64,000 nt of DNA from Burkholderia cenocepacia. Its GTDB lineage: Bacteria > Pseudomonadota > Gammaproteobacteria > Burkholderiales > Burkholderiaceae. The notes beneath the pieces were generated by a model. That model was given only the letters and a program-made list of their open reading frames with translations, made no database searches and was not told the DNA's origin. Shown piece by piece: positions 50,919 to 55,947 of this stretch. Position 1 is the first letter of the stretch, and each line of letters begins with the position of its first letter. The stretch is taken from positions 1,302,001 to 1,366,000 of the forward strand of contig NZ_CP060040.1 in the NCBI RefSeq assembly GCF_014211915.1, in the 5' to 3' direction. A program made the position numbers and the translations under genes.

Positions 50919-51053
50919 TTACTTGGCTTTTTCAGCCGAATCGCTGATCGCCTGGCCGCCCTTCGAAATGTCCTGGCCCACGCCGGCGACCGTATTGCAA
51001 CCGGCGAGCGCCGCGGTCACCACCAGCAGCATTGCAGCAATCGTACGCGTCAT
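50919..51053 (-). CDS. Entericidin A/B family lipoprotein
   Basis: 44 residues: lipoprotein signal with lipobox LAGC (Cys 19), then the conserved NTVAGVGQDISKGGQAISDSA of entericidins. In E. coli these are the EcnA/EcnB antidote and toxin of cell lysis; single copies like this one are common in Burkholderia with no shown toxicity. ATG 51053 is chosen over 51059 since AGGAG is at the correct distance only for the former. Confidence 0.9.
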   Translation of the reverse strand: MTRTIAAMLLVVTAALAGCNTVAGVGQDISKGGQAISDSAEKAK

Positions 51054-51246
51054 TCTCATTCTCCTTCGAATCAACATGCCCGACCGGGCGAATCGTGTGC
51101 GGCTGGCGCCGGCAGACTGCCGGACACGGGGCCTGACCTGATTATACGGAGACGCAGGCCGCGCGCCAGTACGGCTCCGCCGAGTGTCATGCGCACCCCA
51201 CCGCGCATGCGCGCAGAATTTTCTTGACTTCATCGCGCCAGGAACT

Positions 51247-51267
51247 AATATACGCACCGCGTATATT
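51247..51267. promoter_or_regulatory. Perfect palindrome over the HTH-ATCase promoter
   Basis: AATATACGC-ACC-GCGTATATT: nine-bp arms and a three-base spacer, 20 bases upstream of the ATG. It is A/T-rich at the ends and sits where a promoter -10 would be. A degenerate copy is inside the gene at 51497-51513. Confidence 0.75.
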
Positions 51268-51286
51268 TTCCGCCCAGGAGCCGCCG

Positions 51287-52582
51287 ATGACCGTTCCCCA
51301 GCAAGCCTTCCTCCGCGACGCGATGCGCCGCCTCAACATGACCCGCGAGGCATTCGCGAATCGCATCGGCGTCAGCCGGCGCGCGCTGGATACCTGGCTG
51401 CTTCCGGACGATTCGCAGGAATCGCGCGGGATGCCCGAGATCGTCGAGCGCTTCGTGTCGGAAATCGTCGAGCGCTCGGCGCCGGACGGCGAGAACTATA
51501 CGCAAAGCGTAGACAAACAAGGGCTTGCGAAGCAATTCCTGTTCGAAGGCAAGCCGCAACTGATCTCCGTCGACCAGTTCTCGCGGGATTCGGTCGAGGC
51601 GCTGTTCCGCGTGGCGGATGTCATGCAGCCGATCGCGCGCCGCCACAAGATTTCGCGCGTGCTCGAAGGCGCGGTGCTCGGCAACCTGTTCTTCGAGGCC
51701 AGCACGCGTACACGCGTGTCGTTCGGCGCGGCCTTCTGCCGGCTCGGCGGCTCGGTGTGCGACACGACGGGGTTCACGTTCTCTTCGATGGCCAAGGGCG
51801 AATCGATCTACGACACGAGCCGCGTGATGGCCGGCTACGTCGACGCGCTCGTGATCCGCCATCCGGAAAAAGGCTCGGTGGCCGAATTCGCGCGCGCGAC
51901 CAACCTGCCGGTGATCAACGGCGGCGACGGCCCCGGCGAGCACCCGAGCCAGGCGCTGCTCGACCTCTATACGATCCAGCGCGAGTTTTCGCGACTCGGC
52001 AAGATCGTCGACGGCGCGCACATCGCGCTGGTCGGCGACCTGAAATACGGCCGCACCGTGCACTCGCTCGTCAAGCTGCTCGCACTGTACCGCGGGCTGA
52101 AGTTCACGCTCGTGTCGCCGCCGACGCTCGAGATGCCGACGTACATCGTCGAACAGATCGCGACGAACGGCCACGTGGTCGAGCAGACCAACGACCTCGC
52201 GACCGGGCTGCGCGGCGCGGATGTGGTCTACGCGACGCGAATTCAGAAGGAGCGCTTCACCGACGAGTCGTTCGAAGGCTATACGCCGGATTTTCAGATC
52301 AACCAGGCGCTGGTCGACTCGGTATGCAAGCCCGACACGCTGATCATGCACCCGCTGCCGCGCGACAGCCGGCCCGGTGCGAACGACCTGTCGGTCGACC
52401 TGAACCGCGACCCGCGTCTCGCGATCTTCCGGCAGACCGACAACGGCATTCCGGTGCGGATGGCGATCTTCGCGATACTGCTGGGTGTCGAGAATCTCGT
52501 CCAGCACTCGATGCGCGACGCGACGTGGCGACCGCCGGCGTACCTCGGGCCGGAAGACGCGGTGTTTCACGGGATCGACTAA
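51287..52582 (+). CDS. Aspartate carbamoyltransferase with N-terminal helix-turn-helix domain
   Basis: 431 residues, about 120 longer than catalytic PyrB. Residues 8-60 form an XRE-like HTH (LNMTREAFANRIGVSRRALDTWLLP) and 61-85 a linker; then a full ATCase: FFEASTRTRVSF (carbamoyl-phosphate STRTR 139-143), VIRHPEKGSVAEF, GGDGPGEHPSQALLDLYTI, LVGDLKYGRTVHS, and MHPLPRDSRPGANDL with the aspartate loop (355-367). It should make carbamoyl-aspartate for pyrimidines. CAGGAG precedes ATG 51287. The fused HTH and promoter palindrome suggest an enzyme that controls its own gene; this is inference. No other pyr gene nearby. Confidence 0.92.
   Translation: MTVPQQAFLRDAMRRLNMTREAFANRIGVSRRALDTWLLPDDSQESRGMPEIVERFVSEIVERSAPDGENYTQSVDKQGLAKQFLFEGKPQLISVDQFSRDSVEALFRVADVMQPIARRHKISRVLEGAVLGNLFFEASTRTRVSFGAAFCRLGGSVCDTTGFTFSSMAKGESIYDTSRVMAGYVDALVIRHPEKGSVAEFARATNLPVINGGDGPGEHPSQALLDLYTIQREFSRLGKIVDGAHIALVGDLKYGRTVHSLVKLLALYRGLKFTLVSPPTLEMPTYIVEQIATNGHVVEQTNDLATGLRGADVVYATRIQKERFTDESFEGYTPDFQINQALVDSVCKPDTLIMHPLPRDSRPGANDLSVDLNRDPRLAIFRQTDNGIPVRMAIFAILLGVENLVQHSMRDATWRPPAYLGPEDAVFHGID
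51497..51513. promoter_or_regulatory. Second, degenerate copy of the ATCase palindrome inside the gene
   Basis: TATACGC-AAA-GCGTAGA matches the promoter palindrome core TATACGC-N3-GCGTATA with one mismatch in the right arm. It is 250 bases downstream, in the codons of the HTH/catalytic linker (residues 71-76). Confidence 0.5.
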
Positions 52583-52725: not shown

Positions 52726-53145
52726 TCAGGCGGCCCAAGGGTCGATCACACGCAGGCCTGCCGCCTCGAACGGCGCGACGTCGCGCGTGGCCACGATCAG
52801 CCCGTTCGCCGCGGCGGTTGCGGCAATGAAGCCGTCGGCAGACGCCATCGCGTTGCCCGTACCACGCGCCTTGGCGCGCAGGCTCGCGTACGCCTTGCTG
52901 GCCGCATCATCGAACGGCAGGACCCGGCCGCGAAACAACGGCACGACGCGCTGCTCGATACTTTGCTCGAGCCAGTCCCGCCGACGGCCCTCCGGCAACG
53001 CCGCCACGCCGAAGCGCATTTCCGCCAGACTGATCGCGGCAAGAAACAGCGTCTCGACGTTCTGCGCGTCGAGCCATTCGATCACGGCCGCGTTCGGCTC
53101 GCGCCGCAGCGGCTCGGAAATGACGTTGGTATCGACGAGGATCAT
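52726..53145 (-). CDS. Type II toxin, PIN domain (FitB/VapC-like)
   Basis: 139 residues: MILVDTNVISEPLRREP supplies the first catalytic Asp, SLAEMRFGV the Glu, and SADGFIAATAAANGLIVATRD the second and third Asp, all four acidic positions of a Mg-dependent ribonuclease. The ATG overlaps the antitoxin stop (ATGA). FitB-like rather than classical VapC by the MILVDTNVISE start. The pair is likely a self-contained toxin-antitoxin unit. Confidence 0.92.
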   Translation of the reverse strand: MILVDTNVISEPLRREPNAAVIEWLDAQNVETLFLAAISLAEMRFGVAALPEGRRRDWLEQSIEQRVVPLFRGRVLPFDDAASKAYASLRAKARGTGNAMASADGFIAATAAANGLIVATRDVAPFEAAGLRVIDPWAA

Positions 53146-53381
53146 TCGAAGCTCATCGGATCGGTTGACGATGCGTCGCGCCGAACTTCGAAATCGATGC
53201 CGCCCGCTTCCCGGCCGATTTCAGCCAGCAGCGTCCCGAGCCTGGGTCGGCCGCCGGGCCGAACGGCTTGCTCGAGAATGTCTCGCACCTCGGCTTCGGT
53301 ACTGCGGCCATGTTGCGCGGCCCGGATTCGAAGCGCGCGATGCACTTCGTCGGGTAAATTTCGAACGGTGATCACGGGCAT
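53142..53381 (-). CDS. Type II antitoxin, FitA-like ribbon-helix-helix
   Basis: 79 residues. The N-terminal MPVITVRNLPDEVHRALRIRAAQHGRSTEAEVRDIL is a FitA/Arc-like RHH DNA-binding fold; the C-terminal part binds and blocks the PIN toxin. GAGG precedes ATG 53381, chosen over a longer start because the beta-strand begins there. Autoregulation by the complex is expected from the family; an ACCGAAT-GAAG-ATTCGGT dyad lies 60 bases upstream. Confidence 0.9.
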   Translation of the reverse strand: MPVITVRNLPDEVHRALRIRAAQHGRSTEAEVRDILEQAVRPGGRPRLGTLLAEIGREAGGIDFEVRRDASSTDPMSFE

Positions 53382-53440
53382 GATGCGCCTCACTACATTT
53401 GCTTTCAATGCAGTCATATTAACACCTTGCTGTCATTTTA

Positions 53441-53586: not shown

Positions 53587-53703
53587 ATTTAAAGAAAAAT
53601 TACATAGAATGCCGCCTGAAAACAAATCGTAATAATTCCCGGCGGCGTGCACATTTCCGCATCGCAGCGCCCCCGGGGCCACACCGCGAGGTCGAAGCGC
53701 ACC

Positions 53704-55947
53704 ATGAAATCCCGTCCGGACGAGCTGAAGCTCGGTAAGTTCACCACCTTGTGCAGCGTGCTCGCCGCGAGCCCCGCGTTCGCCGACGGCACGCCGCCCG
53801 CGGCGCCCGCCAGCACCGAAGGCCACCTCGCGCCGATCGAGATCCAGGGCAAGACCGAGCACAGCTACAAGGCCGACTTTTCCGCTTCCGCGAAATTCAC
53901 CGCGCCGCTCGTCGACACGCCGAAATCCGTCACCGTGATCCCGCAGGAACTGATCCAGAGTAGCGGCGCGGCGACGCTGACCGAAGCGCTGCGCACCGTG
54001 CCCGGCATCACGTTCGGCGCCGGCGAAGGCGGCAACCCGCTCGGCGACCGTCCGTTCATTCGCGGCTACGACACGCAGGGCAGCATGTTCGTCGACGGCA
54101 TGCGCGACACGGGCGCCACCACGCGCGAGATCTTCAATACCGAACGCGTCGAGATCACCAAGGGTTCCGACGGCGCGTACGGCGGCCGCGGCGGCGCCGG
54201 CGGCAGCATCAACCTGATCACGAAGGCCCCGCACCTCGGCACGACGGCCGCCGCGAGCGCGGGCCTCGGCACCGACCGCTATCGCCGCTTCACCGCCGAC
54301 GGCAACTGGCAGTTCGCCGAGCACGCCGCGTTCCGCCTGAACCTGATGAGCCACAACAACGACGTCGCCGGCCGCGACGCCGTCAACAACGAGCGCTGGG
54401 GCGTCGCGCCGTCGATCGCGTTCGGTCTCGGCACGCCGACGCGCGTGACCGCGAGCTACTACCACCTGCAGACGGACGACATGCCCGACGGCGGCATCCC
54501 GTACTTCTACACGACCTCGAACAAGCCCGCGAACGTCGGCACGATCTATCCGGCGCCTGTCGATCGCCACAACTTCTACGGCCTGATCGACCGCGACTTC
54601 CGCAAGACCACGTCGGACATCAGCACGATCAAGATCGAGCACGACATCACGCCGAACCTCACGGTGCGCAACACCACGCGCTACACGGAATCGACGCAGG
54701 ACTACATCTGGACGCAGCCGGACGACAGCCAGGGCAACGTGGTGAACGGCAAGGTCTGGCGCCGCAACAACAACCGCAACAGCTCGGTCAACAGCCTCGC
54801 GAACCTGACCGAGCTGTTCGGCGAATTCCGCACGGGCCCGTTCAAGCACAGCTTCACGACCGGCATCGAGCTGTCGCGCGAATGGGGCAAGCGCGACTCG
54901 TACACGGTCGCGACCGACAAGGGCAAGATCTGCCAGAAAGGCATCGGCGCCGCGTCGGGCTACAACTGCACGAGCCTGTGGTCGCCGAACCCGAACGATC
55001 CGTGGGCCGGTTCGATCACGCGCAACAACGACTACGCGCATGCGCGCACCACGACGAAGTCGATCTACGGCTTCGACACGATCGAGATCACGCCGCGCTG
55101 GCAAGTCAACGCCGGCGTGCGCGTCGACGACTACTCGACCCGCTTCACCGACACCAAGGCCAACGGCGGCAAGACCACCACGCGCGACGACACGCTCGTG
55201 AACTGGCAGGCCGGCCTCGTGTTCAAGCCCGCGCAGAACGGCAGCATCTACGCGTCGTATGCGACCTCGTCGACGCCCGCCGGCATGATGCTCGGCGAAG
55301 GCAGCGAAACGCAGTCGCTCACGCCGGGCCACGGCGGCGTCGGCCCGAACGCCGATCAGCTTTCGCCGGAAAAGAACCGCAGCATCGAGCTCGGCACGAA
55401 GTGGAACGTGCTGAACGACAAGCTGTCGCTGACGGCCGCGCTGTTTCAGATCGACACGACCAACGCACGCGTGACGCTGCCGAACAACCAGTACGCGATG
55501 GTCGGCAACAAGCGCGTGCAGGGTCTCGAGCTCGGCCTCGCCGGCCAGATCACGAAGCAATGGCAGGTGTTCGGCGGCTACACGTACATGAAGAGCCAAC
55601 TGCGCGACAACGGCAAGGACGCCGCGAACAACGGCAACCGCTTCCCGAACACGCCGAAGCACAGCCTGACGATGTGGTCGAACTACGACGTCACGCCGAA
55701 GTTCACGGTCGGCGGCGGCGCGTTCTACATGTCGGAGGTGTTCGGCGATCCCGCGAACCTGCGCGCCGTGCCGTCGTACTGGCGCTTCGATGCGATGGCG
55801 CAGTACCGGATCAACAAGAAGCTCGACCTGCAACTGAACGTCAACAACCTGTTCAACCGCACCTACTTCGATCAGGCGTATCCGGCGCACTATGCGTCGA
55901 TCGCGCCGGGCCGTTCGGCGTTCGTCACGCTGAACGCGCGCTACTGA
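53704..55947 (+). CDS. TonB-dependent siderophore receptor (Fiu-like)
   Basis: 747 residues. A short signal region ends about PAFADG, followed by a TonB-box region, the plug domain ([46 protein letters not shown]) and the beta-barrel ending [10 protein letters not shown]. The closest named type is the catecholate receptor Fiu/PiuA, consistent with PiuC downstream. ATG 53704 is used; the N-terminus is unusually long and weakly hydrophobic for a signal peptide. Likely iron-repressed by Fur. Confidence 0.92.

Follow-up and report, generated by a model that had tools for sequence, protein, structure and literature searches.

A probable self-repressing aspartate carbamoyltransferase of Burkholderiales with an XRE-like head and palindromes in its promoter and linker codons

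Introduction

PutA and BirA are active enzymes with a fused DNA-binding domain by which they repress genes of their own pathway. NadR combines a helix-turn-helix (HTH) with NMN adenylyltransferase and ribosylnicotinamide kinase and controls several unlinked NAD genes; the E. coli protein is annotated as DNA-binding repressor/NMN adenylyltransferase. The DNA-binding domain of BzdR is of the XRE type. Aspartate carbamoyltransferase (ATCase) is a textbook enzyme for feedback control, and in E. coli PyrI dimers link two of its catalytic trimers.

As described in the accessible part of the source, BzdR consists of an N-terminal DNA-binding domain, a linker and a shikimate-kinase-like domain that has lost its activity (PMC3602430). 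The available text of another study presents E. coli PepA and PyrH as trigger enzymes acting on carAB (PMC6245113). Burkholderia was reported to possess a second, longer ATCase of about 430 residues, with its role left open and possibly catabolic in the portion of the review available (PMC4581275). A term search of the PMC4581275 text returned no helix-turn-helix, DNA-binding or transcription.

The protein analyzed here, which belongs to the same class as that ATCase by length and HPLP motif so far as the available text allows, is encoded in a stretch of 64,000 nucleotides of Burkholderia cenocepacia (NZ_CP060040.1, positions 1,302,001 to 1,366,000), hereafter the window. A sequence-only reading of this DNA had proposed that an ATCase with a fused HTH binds two palindromes and regulates its own gene. 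The comparative evidence on this proposal is reported below.

Results

Organization of the HTH-ATCase gene

The features of the locus are as follows, in window coordinates.

51224..51229, + strand: -35 box TTGACT, from the promoter scan, 16 bp ahead of the -10 box
51246..51251, + strand: -10 box TAATAT, from the promoter scan, overlapping the left arm of O1
51247..51267, no strand: O1, candidate promoter operator AATATACGC-ACC-GCGTATATT, with its 14-letter core at 51249-51265
51276..51280, + strand: AGGAG, likely ribosome-binding site by sequence
51287..52582, + strand: HTH-ATCase gene (PRK11891 type), 431 aa plus stop, ATG at 51287
51287..51484, + strand: N-terminal XRE-like HTH domain, aa 1-66, from library matches, the AlphaFold2 model and alignment
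51377..51397, + strand: presumed recognition helix, aa 31-37 (RRALDTW), helix 31-37 of the model and alignment A2
51473..51556, + strand: variable linker between HTH and ATCase body, aa 63-90, from alignment A1, with low pLDDT
51497..51513, no strand: O2, candidate linker operator TATACGC-AAA-GCGTAGA, encoding Y-T-Q-S-V, from the codon test
51557..52495, + strand: ATCase catalytic body, aa 91-403, with 15 of 15 checked catalytic residues and Pfam and NCBIfam matches

The protein had been said to contain a complete ATCase body, and the library searches agree. Pfam assigned OTCace_N to aa 92-231 (E = 7.6e-43) and OTCace to aa 243-397 (E = 2.8e-28) of the 431-aa protein, so that both halves are present. 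The NCBIfam aspartate carbamoyltransferase family PRK11891 (NF008853; 430 positions) matched at full length, with aa 1-431 on model positions 1-430 and 897 bits against a cut-off of 560. In an alignment made here, all 15 of the residues which we take to be catalytic in E. coli PyrB were found (S52, T53, R54, T55, S80, K84, R105, H134, Q137, R167, R229, Q231, P266, L267 and P268).

The XRE-like HTH, placed by the earlier reading at residues 8-60, gave weak library matches and a tentative structural model. Five helices were predicted by AlphaFold2 (aa 4-15, 20-27, 31-37, 44-47 and 49-62) at moderate to low confidence, with pLDDT of 60-78 by block over the first 40 residues, lower values after that and 64.8 for the whole model. 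PHROG 4779, 'transcriptional regulator', matched the first 75 aa (E = 2.2e-4). Pfam HTH_3 reached 18.3 bits on the first 66 aa, under its curated cut-off of 23, and the domain is therefore named XRE-like only. Profile comparison with the NadR HTH gave a weak match (E = 0.0048, probability 7%). R32, L34 and W37 were invariant across the 35 rows of alignment A2, and A33 and D35 nearly so. On the model, aa 1-66 likely adopt an HTH fold, and the recognition helix at aa 31-37 would contact DNA.

The HTH domain alone as query retrieved short proteins, and those with a name were called aspartate carbamoyltransferase; they are probably fragments because they lie mostly on short contigs. A free-standing relative of the domain, 85 aa long and 42% identical in A2, is encoded at L176:4931-5188 (- strand) of genome G015, and no site of at least 11/14 was found in that 10-kb stretch. 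This protein may parallel the DNA-binding head in its ancestral state.

Distribution and sampling of the gene

The gene is patchy in Burkholderiales, where it was matched in 26 of 399 sampled genomes and 18 of 158 genera (E 1e-80). Among these matches, 22 begin by aa 5 and include the HTH, and four begin at aa 88-90. The HTH form was found in six families (f1, f4, f5, f8, f22 and f23). The gene was present in 73 of 150 genomes of the family sample and in 174 of 268 in f4. The class sample (369 genomes) gave nine matches beyond the source genome, all aligning only from aa 73-91 and without the HTH.

For the comparison of sites, 176 loci were examined, of which 165 were distinct. The sources were 30 of the 73 genomes of the family sample that have the gene, the best 80 of 515 in a named genome collection, 40 picked stretches and 26 loci from f4 that were partly chosen for low score or small genome. 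Burkholderia and Paraburkholderia are over-represented in this set, so the loci are not independent.

O1 overlaps a conserved promoter

The palindrome with 9-bp arms reported ahead of the ATG was seen at 51247-51267; it is perfect (9-3-9) and is separated from the ATG by 19 bases. A scan of 51050-51400 found TTGACT-16-TAATAT as the sole promoter-like site, and it is near-consensus. Transcription would be expected to start near 51257-51259, given the position of this promoter, with O1 reaching from -10 to about +10. TTGACT with a 16-bp spacer was present in 99 of 133 loci, and 114 of 133 had at least 5/6 matches to TTGACA. The -10 letters T1, A2 and T6 were retained in 125 of 133 loci and the full TAATAT in 105 of 133.

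Of the first 135 distinct HTH loci, which include the eroded L135, 133 had an O1 of 12/14 or better. Among 404 upstream control windows, none reached 11 and two reached 10.

O2 is preserved within the linker codons

The near copy described downstream, in the codons between HTH and enzyme, corresponds to O2 at 51497-51513, 248 bp from O1 centre to centre. O2 scored at least 12/14 in 114 of 135 distinct loci versus 1 of 973 coding control windows; at looser cut-offs, 70 of 973 control windows reach 11 and 110 of 973 reach 10. Across the 144 loci with an intact helix, the score was at least 12 in 115, 10-11 in 17 and below 10 in 12.

Every one of the 127 loci in which O2 reaches 10/14 at its usual position in the linker carries it in the identical frame, usually as Y-T-Q-S-V. 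When codons were redrawn from each gene's own usage, the expected O2 score was 9.31 and the observed score 12.62. The excess was significant (p < 0.05) in 123 of 127 loci, a figure inflated by the limitation of the test to the 127 of 135 loci preselected for O2 of at least 10/14. The codon choice at O2 was GTA for Val in 113 of 114 cases (4.0% of 3818 other Val in the same genes), TAT for Tyr in 101 of 103 (31.5% elsewhere), CAA for Gln in 104 of 123 (19.5% elsewhere), AGC for Ser in 114 of 115 (29% elsewhere) and GCA for Ala in 12 of 13 (5.9% elsewhere). Locus L028 encodes different amino acids (Y-T-H-R-A-H), yet its O2 scores 12/14. In the soil bacterium Paraburkholderia xenovorans LB400 (L108), whose protein shows 90% identity, both O1 and O2 occur. 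By these sequence comparisons O2 is preserved as DNA, and both sites are conserved beyond coding need.

Some clades without O2 have two upstream sites instead, with scores of 11-13. These are 45-46 bp apart in L133, L134, L136 and L137 and 30 bp apart in L132. Because O2 is absent or weak in some loci, two operators are the common plan and not a universal one. The O1-O2 spacing ranges from 232 to 281 bp without clear helical phase, a range that omits L125 (283 bp), whose match falls outside the usual linker place. At 10.5 bp per turn, R was 0.25 over distinct distances and 0.53 when weighted by loci, the weighting being confounded by relatedness.

Recognition helix and site are present and absent together

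An intact helix was defined as RRALD[TS]W, with Lys permitted for the first two Arg, and the site was searched within 130 bp upstream. Co-occurrence of HTH and palindrome across Burkholderia had been set beforehand as a check on the proposal. Each of the 144 distinct loci with the usual intact helix had a site scoring 11/14 or better. Where the HTH is eroded or missing, such a site was found in none of 13 loci (0/7 eroded, 0/6 absent; three of the six HTH-less loci are from one genus of family f14). The variant L200 has a nearly intact helix, RRALDAW, and no site, in a genome that is 86% complete. L203 is unscored among the 165 distinct loci.

All six loci of genus g479 (L187-L192) carry the A33T helix RRTLDSW and an altered, weaker site of 10-11/14, with GTG instead of GCG on one side of the core. 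The upstream background comes close to these scores, with 2 of 404 windows reaching 10. The GTG core also occurs with Ala33, in L178 and L133. The pattern is suggestive of co-evolution between helix residue 33 and the site core in this one lineage.

The losses map to two positions on the tree, a lineage of genomes of 0.7-0.9 Mb and G201, which sits on a long branch of unsure placement. The ten eroded or HTH-less loci that were measured are AT-rich (GC 26-40%), so the joint loss may be due in part to erosion in general. L129, from a 1.2-Mb genome, has an intact helix and has kept both O1 and O2.

The sites are nearly private to the HTH-ATCase gene

A genome search for further sites, also suggested by the sequence-only reading, found O1 and O2 to be private to the HTH-ATCase gene in the source genome. 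When the 7.6-Mb genome was searched for TATACGCANCGCGTATA, the only place without mismatch was O1, and O2 was the only addition within two mismatches. The remaining places all had three mismatches, and the total was 12+15 against 28+18 for the reversed-pattern control. The window contained five matches with up to three mismatches versus 1.2 expected, and none of 100 shuffles reached five. No place with up to three mismatches was found within 100 kb of the canonical pyrB (C1:1400770) of the source genome.

The number of places within two mismatches was at or under control in 19 of 21 other genomes, the exceptions being G109 and G298. Among the matches listed, nine genomes bear the HTH form; the O1 of the gene was always among their places with 0-1 mismatch, and four of the nine had one further such place. 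These four extra 1-mismatch places, read by eye, lie in or beside ORFs other than pyrimidine genes. Two of them, L205:1958 and L206:1986 from two genera, show a similar palindrome between LysR-like and MFS-like genes (by eye), which is probably the site of another regulator. The other two lie just upstream of a TctC-like ORF and inside an unidentified ORF (by eye).

Neighbouring genes

Neighbouring ORFs of at least 100 residues were compared among 16 loci, including L174 and L175 from the eroded and HTH-less lineages. Apart from ATCase and overlapping ORFs, no family was common to more than 4 of 16 loci. The most shared neighbours were one ABC-transporter-like family in four loci and two other families in three. 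A separate regulator next door was rejected as a candidate on this basis, for neighbours of at least 100 residues.

In the window, a small protein gene of the entericidin family (50922-51056, - strand) lies upstream of the ATCase gene on the opposite strand. Just downstream and convergent is a pair of the FitAB/VapBC type (52729-53417, - strand), composed of a PIN-domain protein and a FitA-like ribbon-helix-helix antitoxin. A TonB-dependent receptor is encoded at 53647-55947 (+ strand).

The HTH-ATCase is the only ATCase found in six genomes

The source genome also has a canonical PyrB, located on another replicon beside a PyrC-like gene (by eye). With the canonical PyrB as query, 14 of 23 genomes had a match and nine had none. 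An intact HTH-ATCase was present in six of these nine genomes (G015, G010, G245, G491, G351 and G465). No other ATCase was found in those six genomes, where the sole other carbamoyltransferase match had 24-30% identity in each case; the presumed ornithine enzyme of the source genome showed a comparable identity of 26%. PyrD was over the cut-off in all 12 genomes tested, including the six with the HTH-ATCase only.

Since PyrD was found in these six genomes and a second ATCase was not, the HTH-ATCase should be their only source of carbamoyl aspartate, barring a divergent ATCase that escaped the search. The HTH-ATCase is probably enzymatically active, as far as gene content and residues indicate. 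Its position as the sole ATCase found in six genomes argues against the purely catabolic role raised in PMC4581275, at least there.

Discussion

We consider it probable, at about 0.83 and from comparative sequence evidence, that this ATCase binds O1 and O2 through its HTH and represses its own gene by promoter occlusion. This was the core of the earlier proposal. Co-occurrence of helix and site, their near-privacy and the lack of a widely shared neighbour speak for it, and the part concerning binding and self-regulation stays a prediction. An N-terminal HTH dimer would bind the palindrome TATACGC-N3-GCGTATA. Protein bound at O1, which extends over both the -10 box and the predicted start of transcription, should block RNA polymerase, and the result would be negative autoregulation. 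The second operator, mostly in the linker and upstream in a few loci, may offer the same oligomer another point of contact. Such a contact could increase occupancy nearby, possibly through looping of the DNA, or the site could be a roadblock. A loop is an appealing idea, as several HTHs would be available on an enzyme that is a trimer or hexamer. That the protein binds DNA, that it represses and does not activate, and that the two sites cooperate are in this sense what we infer. A substrate or product in the ATCase body might in turn modulate DNA binding, and the fusion of HTH and enzyme would then have a reason. By analogy, control of DNA binding by substrates or pyrimidines would be likely. 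Against autorepression count the weak library matches of the HTH, the lack of a site in L200, the loci with a weak or absent O2, and the need for a dimer from an enzyme which, by homology, is presumably trimeric.

A further arrangement is speculative and rather unlikely. Like the PyrI dimers of E. coli, HTH dimers would bridge a pair of catalytic trimers to give a D3 hexamer with three DNA-binding dimers, which would grip O1 and O2 simultaneously in a loop, and substrate-driven closure would release the DNA. If it were true, the allosteric assembly itself would be the repressor, and active-site occupancy would be read directly as transcription.

A separate, unlinked regulator might instead bind both palindromes, the HTH of the ATCase being used for oligomerisation or being a relic. 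The weak matches of this HTH to library models and the nearly intact helix of L200 without a site would fit such a regulator, and a nearby gene of less than 100 residues would escape the neighbour comparison. We regard it as improbable, since the sites are private to the HTH-ATCase gene in the source genome, O1 is always a 0-1-mismatch place in the nine HTH-bearing genomes among the matches listed, no larger neighbour is widely shared, and site and recognition helix are absent together. A dedicated regulator with a single target, retained over six families, would also be unusual. Comparative data of this kind give probable sites and not the sign of the effect, so the protein could be its own activator or could bind for another purpose. 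An operator over the -10 box and start is the typical position of a repressor, however, and O1 has this position on a near-consensus promoter. The downstream intragenic site also fits repression better, and a role other than repressor seems hardly probable.

The palindromes could also be RNA hairpins, or reflect promoter and codon constraints without a protein partner. A short hairpin of 5 bp is possible at O2 in the mRNA, and the left arm of O1 also serves as the -10 box. However, a transcript beginning at about 51257-51259 would include the right arm of O1 but not the left, and neither this right arm nor the linker copy has a promoter role. The coding expectation is exceeded by O2 in 123 of the 127 loci tested, and two upstream copies stand in for it in other clades. 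An origin in RNA or constraint alone is thus barely credible, and autorepression by the ATCase is the reading that we prefer.

With autorepression, an HTH-ATCase of six Burkholderiales families, in some genomes the only ATCase found, would carry its own likely repressor. It would offer a role for the Burkholderia ATCase of about 430 residues, which the available text of PMC4581275 left open. The locus also provides a system for asking how enzymes acquire repressors and how codons and an operator share the same bases.

Enzyme-repressors are a known kind of protein, and an ATCase in such a role appears to be new, as we found no description of one. Among the papers listed in searches of the open full-text literature, which mostly lacks subscription journals, no title or abstract opening described a DNA-binding ATCase. 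We know of no ATCase that controls its own transcription by binding DNA. ATCases of the PRK08192 type and E. coli PyrB/PyrI have the same catalytic body and residues and are HTH-less; the upstream regions of six HTH-less homologues, when read, contained no palindrome. Compared with PutA and BirA, the HTH-ATCase has a different DNA-binding fold and a different enzyme, and to our knowledge neither has an operator in its own linker codons. It resembles NadR in having an N-terminal XRE-like HTH on a metabolic enzyme and in being a presumed pathway repressor. Unlike NadR with its several unlinked targets, it has both sites within its own gene, and its enzyme is an ATCase.

The order of DNA-binding head, linker and enzyme fold is shared with BzdR as described in the accessible part of PMC3602430. 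Whereas the enzyme domain of BzdR is inactive according to that text, the HTH-ATCase retains 15 of 15 checked catalytic residues and is the sole ATCase found in some genomes. Like PepA and PyrH, it sits at the branch point of carbamoyl phosphate and pyrimidines. Those two trigger enzymes, in contrast to what is predicted for the HTH-ATCase, target another gene, and the available text of PMC6245113 describes no dedicated fused HTH for them, whereas here the head, the enzyme and both candidate operators lie in one gene.
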